From NCBI RefSeq assembly GCF_003323745.1, contig NZ_QOIL01000023.1, forward strand, positions 62,001 through 126,000: a stretch of 64,000 nt of DNA, given 5' to 3'. Source of the DNA: Sphaerisporangium album (lineage in GTDB: Bacteria; Actinomycetota; Actinomycetes; Streptosporangiales; Streptosporangiaceae). A program made the translations under genes and the position numbers. Below are positions 185-4,918 of the stretch, in pieces; within the stretch, counting starts at the first letter, position 1, and each line of letters opens with the position of its first letter. Below the pieces are notes generated by a model. It saw nothing but the letters and a program-made list of their open reading frames with translations. It made no database searches and was not told the DNA's origin.

Positions 185-736
185 TCACGACGACCGCCCG
201 AGGATCGGGATCGCCGCCTTCTCGGGGTCCTCGCTGAAGTAGAAGTCGTACATCGCCTGCGCGAACTCGTCCTTGCCCAGGTGGCCGTCACCGTCGGTGT
301 CGAGCAGGATGAACGCCTCCCGCGCCTCCGCGGTCCCGACGTCGTAGGCCGACCACAGGTGCAGGTACTCGCGCATGCTGAGCTTCTGGTCGCCGTCGGT
401 GTCCAGCGCGTCCCACAGGGCGTCGGTGATGGGCCAGACGATCGCCACGATGAACGCCGTCCTGTCCAGACGGGGCGAGACGGCGTACTCGACGTACCGC
501 TCCCGGGAGATGCGCCCCTCCTCATCGGTGCCGACGGCGGCCACGACGTTCTCCCACACCTGGGCGTAGGCGTCCTGGAGCCGGCCGCGCGCCGGGGCGT
601 CCGGGGGAAGCCCCAGGCGGTCGGCCAGGTGAAGCCCGACGAGGTACATGTCCTGCTTGTCTATGAAGCCGTCCTGGTTGACGTCGCTGGTGTCGAAGGC
701 GGATCCCGCGTTGGCTTCCTGGGGGCTCGGACGCAT
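185..736 (-). CDS. EF-hand calcium-binding protein
   Basis: A 183-residue soluble protein with three good EF-hand loops and one weak one. The canonical loops are at about residues 18-29 (starts DVNQDGFID), 112-123 (DTDGDQKLS) and 146-157 (DTDGDGHLG), each with Asp at positions 1, 3 and 5, invariant Gly 6 and an acidic residue at 12. A degenerate loop sits near residue 70. This spacing matches bacterial calerythrin/CalD-like sarcoplasmic-type proteins, which buffer or sense Ca2+ in the cytoplasm. The ATG follows a GAGGAG ribosome site. It lies 41 bp downstream of the cyclodipeptide synthase on the same strand, so co-transcription is likely, but no shared function is known. Confidence 0.9.
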   Translation of the reverse strand: MRPSPQEANAGSAFDTSDVNQDGFIDKQDMYLVGLHLADRLGLPPDAPARGRLQDAYAQVWENVVAAVGTDEEGRISRERYVEYAVSPRLDRTAFIVAIVWPITDALWDALDTDGDQKLSMREYLHLWSAYDVGTAEAREAFILLDTDGDGHLGKDEFAQAMYDFYFSEDPEKAAIPILGRSS

Positions 737-777: not shown

Positions 778-1473
778 TTACGTTCGGTCAGTGCGCGTGT
801 CAACGCGTGAGAGCCGGGTGACCAGGAAACCCTGGCCCGGCGCGCGGGAGATGGGCAGGTGACCCCCGTAGAGGTGTGCGACCAGCGGCATCGGCCGGGG
901 GTAGCAGAAGACCGACGACCGGGTGCCGAGGATCGCCGGGGTGTCCACGACGAGCGGCAGCTCCCCGAGCAGGAACGGCACCGCGATCTCCGCCCGCTCG
1001 CGGGTCACCTCCTCGCCCGAGTCGCCGGCGATCACCGGCACCACCGCCTCCAGGCAGGCGTCGCGGAAGCGCGCGTCGGTCGCGTACAGCGCCTCCACGC
1101 GCCTGCGCGTCGCCATGTACGCGCGGTTGGCGGTCAGGTCCGACCAGGTGAAGACGCCGACCGGGCGCACGCGCGGCGCGAGGTCGCCCAGGGCGCGGCA
1201 CACGCGGTTGCGCGTGTTGTTGACGGCCATCCGGGCCTTGCGCCGCACCCGGTCCGCGGCGTGACCGCGCCCGCGCAGGGTGTTCTCCAACTCTCTGCCC
1301 GGCAGCAGCACGTCGACAGTGGCGAAGCTCGACACCGCCCAGCGCAGGAGCTCGGTGATGGTGGCCTGCGAGAAGTAGCCGTTGAGCGCGCTTATGCCGA
1401 CGAGCGCGTGCTCGCGTCCCGCGACGATGCGCGAGCACGCCCTCGTGAGCGGCCTGCTGAAGATGTAGTTCAT
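778..1473 (-). CDS. cyclodipeptide synthase (CDPS)
   Basis: A 231-residue protein that would use two aminoacyl-tRNAs to make a cyclodipeptide (2,5-diketopiperazine). Aligned by eye to AlbC of Streptomyces noursei, the catalytic serine is Ser28 in GISALNGYFS (AlbC Ser37), Glu171 matches Glu182 and Tyr191 matches Tyr202. The basic helix RVRRKARMAVNNTRNRV (residues 75-91) fits the tRNA acceptor-binding helix. Three positions are unusual together: Asn31 (AlbC Asn40, NYH-type), Pro192 (AlbC His203, XYP-type) and Phe167 where AlbC has Tyr178. An in-frame TAA four codons upstream makes this ATG the only normal start. It lacks a Shine-Dalgarno but has TAATTT six bases before it. No P450, oxidase or methyltransferase tailoring gene is adjacent. 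The product cannot be predicted from sequence alone. Confidence 0.88.
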   Translation of the reverse strand: MNYIFSRPLTRACSRIVAGREHALVGISALNGYFSQATITELLRWAVSSFATVDVLLPGRELENTLRGRGHAADRVRRKARMAVNNTRNRVCRALGDLAPRVRPVGVFTWSDLTANRAYMATRRRVEALYATDARFRDACLEAVVPVIAGDSGEEVTRERAEIAVPFLLGELPLVVDTPAILGTRSSVFCYPRPMPLVAHLYGGHLPISRAPGQGFLVTRLSRVDTRTDRT

Positions 1474-1479
1474 AACGGA

Positions 1480-1485
1480 AAATTA
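1480..1485 (-). promoter_or_regulatory. -10 element of a probable leaderless promoter (CDPS gene)
   Basis: TAATTT on the minus strand lies 6 nt before the CDPS ATG, and no ribosome site is present. The AT-rich patch is conspicuous in this GC-rich sequence. The expected transcript start is at or next to the ATG. Confidence 0.5.
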
Positions 1486-1680: not shown

Positions 1681-1753
1681 GGGGCTATGGCGCAGCTGGT
1701 AGCGCGCCTCCATGGCATGGAGGAGGTCTGGGGTTCGAATCCCCATAGCTCCA
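1681..1753 (+). tRNA. tRNA-Ala (anticodon GGC)
   Basis: A 73-nt cloverleaf. Acceptor GGGGCTA pairs with TAGCTCC (1746-1752) with discriminator A1753. The anticodon stem CCTCC/GGAGG encloses loop ATGGCAT, giving anticodon GGC, and the T arm contains GGTTCGAATCC. The 3' CCA is not encoded. It reads GCC and GCU alanine codons. It lies divergently 208 bp from the CDPS gene and is followed by a strong hairpin. Confidence 0.95.
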
Positions 1754-1762
1754 CAAGCGGGT

Positions 1763-1801: not shown

Positions 1802-2755
1802 TCAGTTCTTGAAGGTGTGGCGGTAGGTCAGCGGGGCGACGCCGACGGTGGCGTGCAGGTGCTGGCGCAGCGAGACCGCGGTGCCGAAGCCCGCCTGGGC
1901 GGCCACCTGGTCCACCGGCAGGCTGGTGGTCTCCAGCAGGTGGCGCGCGTGGTCGACGCGCTGCCGGGCCAGCCATCGCGCCGGGCTGAGGCCCGTCTCC
2001 TCCCGGAACCGTCGCGTGTACGTGCGCACGCTCATACGGGCGTGCCGGGCCTGCGCGGCGAGGGCGAGCGGCTCGGCGAGGCGCTCCAGCATCCATGCAC
2101 GGGTCGGCGCCGTCGTCGTCCCGCCGGGGTCGGGGAGCGGGCGCTCGATGAACTGCGCCTGGCCCCCCTCGCGCCAGGGCGGCGTCACGCAGCGCCTGGC
2201 CGCCCGGTTGGCGACCTCGCTGCCGTGGTCACGGCGGATGACGTGCAGGCACAGGTCGATGCCGGCGGCGACGCCCGCCGAGGTCAGCAGGTCGCCGTCG
2301 TCGACGAACAGCACCTCCTGGTCGAGCCGCACCTTCGGGAACAGCGACCGGAACACGGTGGTGTTCCTCCAGTGCGTCGTGGCGGGCCGGCCGTCCAGCA
2401 GGCCGGCCGCGGCCAGCACGAACGCGCCCGTGCAGATCGACATCATGCGGGACTTCGCGGCGGCCCGGCGCAGCGCCTCGCCCAGCTCGGGGTCGATCGT
2501 GCCGTCGGCGAGCGGGGGACCGCTGTGGATGCCGGGCACCACGACGGTGTCCGCCGTGCCGAGGACCGACAGGTCGTGGTCGGGGACCAGGCTGTACCCG
2601 GCCGGGCCGCGAACGGGCCGTCCACCCGGGGTGCAGGTGACCACCTCGTACAGATTCCGGCCGTCCTGCTCGGCGACGCGGAACACCTGCCCCGGGATGC
2701 CGAGGTCGAGGGTGGCGAAGTCGTCGAGTGCGACGACCACGATGCGATGAGACAT
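1802..2755 (-). CDS. GlxA-type transcriptional regulator (DJ-1/PfpI + AraC HTH)
   Basis: A 317-residue two-domain regulator. The N-terminal DJ-1/PfpI-like domain (about 1-170) carries the nucleophile-elbow-like segment MMSICTGAFVLAAAG. The C-terminal AraC/XylS domain (about 215-315) has two helix-turn-helix units, ending in a motif of the type DQVAAQAGFGTAVSLRQHL. Such proteins bind DNA and often control a neighbouring transporter or catabolic gene. The start MSHRIVVVALDDF matches the family better than an upstream ATG ten codons earlier. It is divergent from the MFS gene, and a TGGC/GCCA dyad lies in the gap, so it probably controls that exporter and itself. Confidence 0.9.
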   Translation of the reverse strand: MSHRIVVVALDDFATLDLGIPGQVFRVAEQDGRNLYEVVTCTPGGRPVRGPAGYSLVPDHDLSVLGTADTVVVPGIHSGPPLADGTIDPELGEALRRAAAKSRMMSICTGAFVLAAAGLLDGRPATTHWRNTTVFRSLFPKVRLDQEVLFVDDGDLLTSAGVAAGIDLCLHVIRRDHGSEVANRAARRCVTPPWREGGQAQFIERPLPDPGGTTTAPTRAWMLERLAEPLALAAQARHARMSVRTYTRRFREETGLSPARWLARQRVDHARHLLETTSLPVDQVAAQAGFGTAVSLRQHLHATVGVAPLTYRHTFKN

Positions 2756-2775
2756 GGCCGGATTCTTGCACATAT

Positions 2776-2789
2776 TGGCTTTCAAGCCA
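2776..2789. promoter_or_regulatory. candidate operator, TGGCTT-TC-AAGCCA dyad
   Basis: A perfect 6+6 inverted repeat between the divergent GlxA-type regulator and MFS transporter. Its TGGC half-sites resemble the core recognised by AdpA, a regulator of the same DJ-1/AraC architecture. The regulator-operator link is inferred. Confidence 0.4.
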
Positions 2790-2814: not shown

Positions 2815-4143
2815 ATGATTGTCCGCATGACGTTGACGATGGACGCGAAGCGGAGACGACTCCACCGGGCCTGGCTCGTGGCGGGCGTCGCCTTCGTCGC
2901 GATCGTGGGGGCCGCCGGCTTCCGGGCCACGCCCGGTGTGCTCATCACCCCGCTGGAGGACGAGTTCGGCTGGACGCGGGGGACCATTTCGCTCGCCGTC
3001 TCGGTCAACCTCACCCTGTACGGACTGACCGCGCCCTTCGCGGCCGCCCTGATGGACCGGCTCGGCATGCGCCGCGTCGTGGCGTCCGCGCTCGCGCTCG
3101 TCGCCCTCGGCAGCGGCCTGACGGTGTTCATGACCACGAGCTGGCAGCTCGTCGCCTGCTGGGGCGTGCTGGTCGGCCTCGGCACCGGCTCCATGGCGCT
3201 CGTCTTCGTCGCGACGGTCACCGACCGGTGGTTCGTCCGGCACCGGGGCGTGGTCACGGGCGTGCTCACCGCGGGAGGGGCCGCCGGGCAGCTCGTCTTC
3301 CTGCCGGTGCTGGCCTGGCTCGCCGAAGGGCCGGGCTGGCGGACGGCCGCGCTGATCGTGTCGGGAGCGGCGCTGGCCGTCGTCCCGCTGGTGTGGTTCC
3401 TGCTGCGCGACCGTCCCGAGGACGTCGGGCTGACCGCGCTCGGCGCCGAGCCGGGCGCCGTGCGCCTCGCCGCCCCGCGCGGGGCCTCGGCGCTGCGGGC
3501 GCTGACCGTGCTCAGGTCCGCGGCGCGCACCCGGTCGTTCTGGTACCTCGTGGGCGGCTTCGCCATCTGCGGCGCCAGCACCAACGGCCTCGTCGGCACC
3601 CACTTCATCCCCGCCGCCCACGACCACGGCATGCAGGAGACCACCGCCGCCGGCCTGCTCGCCCTCATCGGCATCTTCGACATCGCCGGGACGGTGTTCT
3701 CGGGCTGGCTGAGCGACCGGGTCGACTCGCGCGTCCTGCTCGGCGCCTACTACGCGCTGCGCGGCGCGTCCCTGCTGGTCCTGCCCTCGCTGTTCGCGGC
3801 CACGGCCCAGCCGAGCATGCTGATCTTCATCATCTTCTACGGGCTGGACTGGGTGGCCACCGTGCCGCCGACCGTCGCGCTGTGCCGCAAGATCTACGGG
3901 CCGGACGGCGCGGTGGTGTTCGGCTGGGTGTTCGCCTCCCACCAGGTCGGCGCCGCCATCGCCGCGGTCGCCGCCGGGGTGACCCGCGACCACCTCGGGC
4001 ACTACGACGCCGCCTGGTACGGGGCCGGAATCCTCTGCGCGTTCGCGGCCGTCATGTCGCTGCGGGTCGCGCGCGGCGCCGCCTCGCCTCCGCCGGACCG
4101 GACGCCCGTCCGTCCGGCCACCGTGGACGCCGGGGGAGCCTGA
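2815..4143 (+). CDS. MFS transporter
   Basis: A 442-residue major facilitator protein with about twelve hydrophobic segments. The loop 2-3 motif appears as MDRLGMRRVVAS near residue 80, and a second-half repeat SGWLSDRVDSRVLLG lies near residue 300. Family members of this type (monocarboxylate/OFA-like) move small organic acids or drugs across the cytoplasmic membrane; the substrate cannot be read from the sequence. The divergent GlxA-type gene begins 59 bp away and is the likely regulator. An internal ATG at 2821 is an equally possible start. Confidence 0.88.
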   Translation: MIVRMTLTMDAKRRRLHRAWLVAGVAFVAIVGAAGFRATPGVLITPLEDEFGWTRGTISLAVSVNLTLYGLTAPFAAALMDRLGMRRVVASALALVALGSGLTVFMTTSWQLVACWGVLVGLGTGSMALVFVATVTDRWFVRHRGVVTGVLTAGGAAGQLVFLPVLAWLAEGPGWRTAALIVSGAALAVVPLVWFLLRDRPEDVGLTALGAEPGAVRLAAPRGASALRALTVLRSAARTRSFWYLVGGFAICGASTNGLVGTHFIPAAHDHGMQETTAAGLLALIGIFDIAGTVFSGWLSDRVDSRVLLGAYYALRGASLLVLPSLFAATAQPSMLIFIIFYGLDWVATVPPTVALCRKIYGPDGAVVFGWVFASHQVGAAIAAVAAGVTRDHLGHYDAAWYGAGILCAFAAVMSLRVARGAASPPPDRTPVRPATVDAGGA

Positions 4144-4180: not shown

Positions 4181-4918
4181 GTGGCAGGGGGGCCTGAGAT
4201 CCTTGGTGACGTGAACCCGCCAGACCAGAGGGTCCTCCCCCTCGTCGTGAGAATCGAGCGCGCCGCCCCGCCCGAGCGCACCGACGCCCTGGAGGCCGCC
4301 GCGCTGGCCGTGCTCACCCTGCTCAACGACGAGCGGGCCCTGAGCGGCGAGTGGGCGGAGGCGGTGAGCGCCTGGGAGACCATCGGCATCAGGAAGGTCG
4401 TCCGCCGGGCGAGGGGCGGCGAATGGCGCCGGGTGCTGGAGCTGCCCGGCCTCACCGTCACCGTGCGCACGGCCGAGGTGCGCGTGCACCCGCCCGTCCC
4501 TCTGGACGGCTGGCCGAAGGAACTGTCGCGGCTGCAGGTCTCGGGCACCGACCTGACCGACACCGCGCCCCCGGACCCGCCCGAGCCCGGCGCGGCGGTG
4601 CTGTGGATGAACCCCTCCCTGGAGATGTCGGCGGGCAAGGCCATGGCCCAGGCCGGCCACGCGGCGCAGCTCGCCTGGTGGGGCACCGACGAGCCCGCCC
4701 GCGAGGCGTGGCGCGCGGACGGCCTGCCGGTCGCCGTGCGCACGGCGGGGCCGCGCCGCTGGTCGGCGCTGGCCGACAGCGGGCTGCCCGTCGTCCGGGA
4801 CGCGGGTTACACGGAGATCGAGCCGGGTTCACGCACGGTCGTCGCCGACGCGCCGTGGCTGCGCGCCGGGGGGCACCGGCCGGCCGGGTGGGGGCCGCTC
4901 CGCAATCCCTCCGCGTAG
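4181..4918 (+). CDS. peptidyl-tRNA hydrolase PTH2-like protein
   Basis: A 245-residue protein. Its C-terminal half holds a PTH2-type core: GKAMAQAGHAAQLAW (about residues 149-163) corresponds to the G-K/R-x-x-A-Q-x-x-H-A helix, and VVRDAGYTEIEPGSRTVVAD (near 203-222) is the typical DAG-T-I-PGS/T-T strand region. PTH2 enzymes cleave peptidyl-tRNA in archaea and eukaryotes. Bacterial homologues like this one are poorly characterised, so activity is inferred. The N-terminal ~110 residues are not recognised. The first start is GTG 4181; GTG 4211 is also plausible. Confidence 0.75.
   Translation: MAGGPEILGDVNPPDQRVLPLVVRIERAAPPERTDALEAAALAVLTLLNDERALSGEWAEAVSAWETIGIRKVVRRARGGEWRRVLELPGLTVTVRTAEVRVHPPVPLDGWPKELSRLQVSGTDLTDTAPPDPPEPGAAVLWMNPSLEMSAGKAMAQAGHAAQLAWWGTDEPAREAWRADGLPVAVRTAGPRRWSALADSGLPVVRDAGYTEIEPGSRTVVADAPWLRAGGHRPAGWGPLRNPSA

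Follow-up and report, generated by a model that had tools for sequence, protein, structure and literature searches.

The window, a 64,000-nucleotide stretch of Sphaerisporangium album DNA, raises the question of whether a cyclodipeptide synthase (CDPS) that combines residues of the NYH and XYP subfamilies, and that has Phe at the position of Tyr178, belongs to either group or stands between them, and whether it would still make a cyclodipeptide. The gene concerned (778..1473, minus strand) is an open reading frame of 231 codons before the stop, with an ATG start. From the reading frame, Pfam, alignments to PDB structures, a tree and an AlphaFold model, we assign its 231-aa product to the NYH branch of the CDPSs, with the residue set N40/F178/P203 (AlbC numbering throughout). 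The PF16715 profile matches the protein with 206.1 bits (7.5e-61; curated cut-off 27 bits), and no other protein of the 9.3 Mb genome matches PF16715 (E <= 0.001).

Fold and active site of the window CDPS

A phmmer search of the PDB returned YvmC (3.1e-32), AlbC (1.6e-27), BtCDPS (about 1e-24), Rv2275 (2.8e-23) and the Staphylococcus haemolyticus enzyme (3e-19), with about 90-115 bits for AlbC, YvmC and BtCDPS and 86 for Rv2275. The AlphaFold2 model, computed from the window protein and ten relatives, has a pLDDT of 87.8 and a pTM of 0.85, and Foldseek with this model gave CDPS structures at all of ranks 1-47, which places it in the CDPS fold. Among the matches listed, the query-normalised TM-scores were 0.74-0.88 for NYH structures (BtCDPS, YvmC, AlbC, Rv2275 and the S. 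haemolyticus enzyme, which we take to be NYH), and 0.66-0.69 for Fdum-CDPS, 0.60-0.64 for Nbra-CDPS, 0.58 for Rgry-CDPS and 0.57-0.63 for Parcu-CDPS, all of them XYP. Besides these labelled structures, the listed matches include an S. sapporonensis CDPS (0.73-0.76) and a Porphyromonas gingivalis CDPS (0.67). Apart from that of the S. haemolyticus enzyme, the NYH and XYP labels follow PMC7613923. By these TM-scores the modelled fold is nearer to NYH than to XYP structures, and we do not count it as an XYP fold.

In phmmer alignments to AlbC (3oqv) and YvmC (3oqh), Ser28, Asn31, Phe167, Glu171, Tyr191 and Pro192 of the window protein correspond to AlbC Ser37, Asn40, Tyr178, Glu182, Tyr202 and His203; these alignments are gap-free within six residues of each of the six positions, and MAFFT repeats every assignment. 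The initial annotation had proposed just this correspondence, with a spacing of 20 between the Glu and the Tyr in both proteins, and it was right at every point. The catalytic Ser37, Glu182 and Tyr202 are kept as Ser28 (codon 1390..1392, minus strand), the counterpart of the acceptor of the first aminoacyl group, Glu171 (961..963, minus strand), that of the proposed base, and Tyr191, that of the residue that acts in ring closure. Asn31 (1381..1383, minus strand) is the NYH-type residue at position 40, and the Tyr191-Pro192 codons (898..903, minus strand) bring an XYP-type Pro to position 203. Of the NYH trio, Asn40 and Tyr202 are thus present and His203 is Pro; the XYP pair Tyr202-Pro203 is present as Y191-P192, but residue 40 is Asn. 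Position 178 is Phe167 (codon TTC, 973..975, minus strand), and no other Tyr lies within reach of it (AVPFLLGELP in the window protein, LNYVLAEAP in AlbC).

A conserved clade of NYH descent

Among the proteins of 341 genomes of its family, the Streptosporangiaceae, the window CDPS has 12 further full-length homologues at no less than 201 bits (next match 138 bits), with 48-79% identity to it over the aligned part. One is from Sphaerisporangium perillae, two are from Sinosporangium and seven from Nonomuraea species, and the genomes G148 and G167 fall with the genus Nonomuraea; the S. perillae orthologue, 80% identical to the window CDPS, also has N40/F178/E182/P203. A scan of the named genomes with the single protein found no clade locus, and a search with the clade alignment found 10 loci in them. 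With the window protein included, Ser28 is conserved and N40, F178, E182 and P203 occur in 13/13 members across three genera, so that the initial annotation was right to note a mixed signature and the loss of the Tyr178 hydroxyl, and a sequencing error as the source of the odd residues is ruled out. Tyr202 is present in 12 of the 13, the exception being L099 (genome G194), which has His.

Across the 13 members 61 alignment columns are invariant, that of the start Met among them, and all 13 reading frames are uninterrupted over the CDPS domain. Between the window and S. perillae genes dN is 0.140 and dS 0.597 (NG86; ratio 0.23), and over 12 chosen pairs in the clade the NG86 ratio runs from 0.155 to 0.561. 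dN/dS does not clearly separate L099, which carries Y202H, from the others; its end branch in the tree measures 0.42, where those of its three nearest relatives measure 0.049-0.076, and it is the only clade CDPS without the EF-hand gene described below.

A -10-like box, TAATTT (1480..1485, minus strand), lies 6 nt before the ATG, and a TANNNT box stands 6-8 nt before the start in all 13 loci. With 5-9 nt allowed, such a box preceded only 23/214 other called genes in the same loci and occurred at 21/5000 random positions. Because the 13 loci are homologous, their agreement is conservation and not 13 independent cases. As a sequence feature, the box supports the choice of start codon, and its position suggests that the CDPS mRNA may be leaderless.

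Columns 40, 178 and 203 were taken out of the alignment of 102 CDPSs from which the tree was built, and we chose to root it on the 13 XYP-side rows; the cut-short hits L158 and L159, the fragments L176 and L177, the spurious hit L060, the near-duplicate L006 and all exact duplicates did not enter it. For XYP enzymes the phylum sample gave only one weak hit, in G370, which the class sample had already contained; the genus of G370 supplied ten XYP-side rows, this hit included. These ten are A40/Y178/P203; the other three come from the window's family, two being Q40/F178/P203 and one Q40/Y178/P203 (L154, L155 and L156 from G187, G012 and G014; the two with Phe178 read SQFEYP). The 13 clade members group together as a single branch (100/100) within an NYH-side set of 37 rows (96/89), and the XYP-side rows form a separate 100/100 branch, which does not contain the window CDPS; the join of NYH and XYP and the joins of L063 and L051 were flagged as meetings of long branches, and no clade row was. 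The set N40/F178/P203 was found only in the clade, 70/102 rows being N40/Y178/H203, and none of the 13 XYP-side rows combines Asn40 with Phe178 (two have Gln40 with Phe178), so that the worry that many XYP enzymes might share this set is answered in part.

The clade is therefore an NYH lineage that acquired Pro203 and Phe178; because its His203 is Pro, we file it as a variant lineage of NYH descent and not as a signature NYH enzyme. With AlbC, YvmC, Rv2275 and BtCDPS it shares sequence, fold, Ser37, Asn40, Glu182, Tyr202 and the branch in the tree, and it differs from them in Pro203, in Phe178 and in having an EF-hand partner gene in 12/13 loci. With XYP enzymes such as Nbra-, Rgry-, Fdum- and Parcu-CDPS it has Pro203 in common, and natural Phe178 occurs in two of the surveyed XYP-side sequences, whereas its Asn40 and its closer sequence and fold similarity to NYH set it apart from them. 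All 765 CDPSs retrieved in June 2017 were placed in NYH or XYP (PMC5816076), and by descent the clade would fall in NYH. The RCDPS subfamily is described as without sequence homology to other CDPSs (PMC13062777), and membership of the window CDPS in it is unlikely in view of its strong homology to NYH.

Within the 102-row tree, Phe178 occurs in 15/28 rows with Pro203 and in 0/70 with His203, all of which have Tyr178. The 15 rows represent two separate lineages (13 and 2 rows), and the linkage of Phe178 to Pro203 is thus a correlation on few events, with two origins only. L063 (also L102; genome G394), which lies directly before a P450 gene, is an N40/Y178/P203 CDPS; because it sits elsewhere within the NYH side, the Asn40/Pro203 mix arose more than once. 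An order in which Pro203 came first and Phe178 later would fit this distribution.

Several other variants were met in the survey. L150, L151 and L152 (G251, G161, G198) form a divergent CDPS-like lineage with His178, Ala or Thr182 and Ser203 (SNHASS, SNHTYS), without the P1 glycine, and are probably inactive as CDPSs or doing something else; L153 (G248; GTHEHP) and L059 (G692; Arg at 37 and Phe at 202) are apparently decayed. On plasmid pFRL6 of Streptomyces sp. F12 (L186) a CDPS gene (SNYEYH) precedes a heavy-metal P-type ATPase gene and lies beside metal regulators, and on a plasmid of Streptomyces sp. NBC_00637 (L198) an unannotated CDPS-like match in two pieces lies near a copper-resistance gene.

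The EF-hand gene and the chromosomal site

The probable operon partner of the CDPS is a gene for a 183-aa protein with a Pfam EF-hand match (185..736, minus strand), 41 nt downstream, and an orthologue stands beside the CDPS in 12/13 clade loci. Orthologues reaching at least 174 bits are present in 16/338 genomes (next match 96 bits), and the CDPS adjoins the gene in 12 of these 16. Three genomes (G004, G006, G036) have the EF-hand gene without a CDPS, and G009 has it with a 42-aa CDPS remnant in which position 202 is His. At L099 there is no room for the EF-hand gene, the end of the CDPS overlapping a called VWA gene. The third calcium loop is degenerate in the orthologues of L091, L094, L095 and L096, so calcium binding by all members is not assured.

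Head-to-head with the CDPS, 207 nt away in the window, lies a tRNA-Ala(GGC) gene (1681..1754, plus strand), which occurs in the same orientation 82-240 nt from the CDPS start in 13/13 loci. From the other side, a VWA/YfbK-type lipoprotein gene converges on the CDPS and EF-hand genes in 11/13 loci, L099 included; the two Sinosporangium loci have a different gene in its place. Four Sphaerisporangium genomes (G001, G002, G003, G008) lack both CDPS and EF-hand gene at the site, and there the VWA gene stands directly before tRNA-Ala(GGC) with nothing called between them; the congeners G007 and G010 gave no VWA match at 1e-60. Genomes that lack the CDPS thus have this tRNA at the site as well. The CDPS and EF-hand genes therefore behave as a two-gene cassette that is present or absent beside tRNA-Ala(GGC), and we read the tRNA as marking the chromosomal site rather than as a partner.

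At the 88 other CDPS loci of the tree, where flanks of mostly 1.5 kb were covered, a nearby EF-hand gene turned up once and a tRNA three times, in no case tRNA-Ala. That one EF-hand case (L040/L196, genome G680) is a distant relative located upstream of the CDPS, and we did not count it as support. At L196 (8052-10852) the EF-hand gene precedes a CDPS whose P1 motif, LGFPWLVF, is of the leucine type; after this CDPS come a P450-like and a methyltransferase-like gene, so named from the look of their sequences. In the literature found by title, no EF-hand or calcium-binding partner gene is described for the CDPS family.

No tailoring gene is constant across the 13 loci. A methyltransferase-like gene occurs a few kb off in 7/13, all in Nonomuraea group g40. 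Five g40 loci (L091, L094, L095, L096, L099) have near the CDPS a gene of 339-549 aa (cluster 8) that, judged by eye, is presumably a type III polyketide synthase. In the window, family searches identify a PfpI/AraC-type regulator adjoining the tRNA (1802-2785, minus strand) and an MFS transporter next to it (2815-4143, plus strand); a tailoring cluster made up of these was set aside, as their homologues stand beside the same tRNA in the CDPS-less genomes G003 and G008. A gene with a peptidyl-tRNA hydrolase PTH2 domain (4211-4918, plus strand; PF01981, 7e-10) lies about 2.7 kb from the CDPS.

Substrates, activity and rival explanations

The substrate pockets were read off the AlbC alignment at the positions given in PMC5816076 (P1: 33-35-65-67-119-185-186-200; P2: 152-155-156-159-204-206-207). 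The window enzyme has LGLPWLVF in P1 and APVGRMP in P2, and over the clade P1 is [LV]GLPW[LF][VLM]F. Table 2 of PMC5816076 gives LGLPWLFF and VGLPWFFF for Pro, LGFPWLVF for Leu and LGLPWFLF for an unresolved F/I case. As the window motif is one residue from LGLPWLFF and from LGFPWLVF, Pro or Leu is our best guess for the P1 substrate, with the reservation that the authors of that study call proline prediction uncertain outside close relatives. The P1 type, xGxPW[LF]x[FY], is that of CDPSs 77, 82, 83, 98 and 100, classed as NYH in PMC5816076 and assigned by us to rows of Table 2 through their products in Table 1; the difference lies in the window P2, which has no matching motif in that Table 2. 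L168 and L170, in the genus of G370, have Asp for Glu at 182 and CGHPWLLY or LGHPWLLY in P1, the former being a proline motif in Table 2 of PMC5816076.

Published mutants bear on whether such an active site could work. In AlbC, Y178F substantially impairs activity, N40A and H203A also impair it, and Asn40 and His203 interact through water, from which a limited set of compatible 40/203 pairs was argued (PMC5935735). A Tyr-to-Phe variant of the XYP enzyme ParcuCDPS still made product at lower yield, and a similar trend is cited for three other XYP enzymes (PMC7613923). In Nbra-CDPS, also XYP, Tyr172, the equivalent of Tyr178, stacks on A76 (PMC13062777), and by analogy a Phe at 178 could still do so. 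These results suggest that Phe178 is tolerated in an enzyme with Pro203 and costly in NYH AlbC, and we therefore infer that the two changes in the clade may compensate each other. Taken together, the AlbC, ParcuCDPS and Nbra-CDPS results make a working N40/F178/P203 enzyme plausible, not proven; and because the source paper says 'almost' and the XYP Tyr-to-Phe variant is productive, Phe178 in 13/13 members does not exclude activity. For H203P or Y178F in a CDPS the literature found comprised PMC5935735 only, and no 'third subfamily' is described in the literature searched.

The explanation we hold to be probable is an active NYH-type CDPS with a rewired active site that would make a Pro- or Leu-containing cyclodipeptide. 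The first aminoacyl-tRNA, most likely Pro-tRNA or Leu-tRNA by the P1 pocket, would acylate Ser28, with its amine anchored and deprotonated by Glu171. Phe167 would retain the ring stacking on A76 of the tRNA without the hydroxyl with which AlbC holds the carbonyl of the acyl group, and Pro192 would impose an XYP-like loop geometry in place of the Asn40-water-His203 pairing, so that the Tyr178 hydroxyl would be needed less. A second aminoacyl-tRNA would then give the dipeptidyl enzyme, and Tyr191 would relay a proton for ring closure. The CDPS would be made together with the small EF-hand protein, probably from a leaderless mRNA. In favour of this reading we count the CDPS fold with its catalytic Ser, Glu and Tyr kept, the single NYH branch, the dN/dS of 0.23, a P1 near Pro and Leu motifs, the occurrence of Phe178 only with Pro203 and the pairing with the EF-hand gene in 12/13 loci. 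Against it we count the impairment of AlbC by N40A, H203A and Y178F, the limited 40/203 pairs, the lack of a constant tailoring gene, NG86 ratios of up to 0.56, the missing or decayed CDPS beside the EF-hand gene in G004, G006, G036 and G009, and the unmatched P2.

As an alternative, the enzymes of the clade may no longer close the ring and may put one or two aminoacyl-tRNAs to another use, such as passing the aminoacyl group to the EF-hand protein or a small molecule, or tRNA deacylation; both residues that hold the substrate in AlbC, Tyr178 and His203, are replaced clade-wide, and the most constant co-directional neighbour is the EF-hand gene and not a known diketopiperazine-tailoring gene. 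We regard this as unlikely, since Tyr202, the residue of ring closure, is kept in 12/13 members, its single loss coincides with the absence of the EF-hand gene, and a recognisable Pro/Leu-type P1 pocket is retained. That the two changes mark an early loss of function, the gene being kept for now by chance or for a structural role, seems to us doubtful: a Y202H in one clade member, the 42-aa remnant with His at 202 in one congener and the three genomes that keep the EF-hand gene without the CDPS would agree with decay, but 61 invariant columns over 13 members of three genera, a promoter-like box in 13/13 loci, the ratio of 0.23 against S. perillae and 13/13 reading frames uninterrupted over the CDPS domain argue for constraint.

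Two further proposals concern the origin of the enzyme and its donor. It is very improbable that the adjacent tRNA-Ala(GGC) is a dedicated donor for an alanine-containing product, for all that it stands head-to-head with the CDPS in 13/13 loci and that the XYP Nbra-CDPS uses Ala-tRNA first (PMC13062777): four genomes that lack both genes, and three that have the EF-hand gene only, share this tRNA at the site, the two tRNA-Ala copies found in each of five stretches are identical save for a single base of L093 and for where the 3' end was called, and the P1 motif is of the Pro/Leu type. As for an evolutionary intermediate between NYH and XYP, the initial annotation's suggestion that the protein may sit between the groups drew on a residue set that does mix both signatures; it is contradicted by the nesting of the clade within NYH in an XYP-rooted tree built without the trait columns, by the NYH-like fold and by the second Asn40/Pro203 protein, L063, elsewhere within NYH, and we give it hardly any credence.

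To return to the rewired, active CDPS, a further and more speculative extension, which we consider rather unlikely as a whole, is that the locus may be a calcium-linked module: N40/F178/P203 would be a functional third active-site solution that evolved inside NYH by paired substitution, the EF-hand protein would control or mediate the activity or its product, and the cyclodipeptide would serve as an internal signal and would not go on to become a tailored metabolite. Should its role be confirmed, the EF-hand protein would represent a type of partner gene that we did not find described for the CDPS family. CDPSs are assigned to subfamilies by residues 40, 202 and 203, and Tyr178 is described as taking part in catalysis. 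In the literature consulted, whether residues 40/203 and residue 178 depend on one another has been approached with AlbC point mutants and simulations and with XYP mutants; a natural clade that departs from both, keeps the other residues and is conserved across three genera supplies ready-made proteins for this question.
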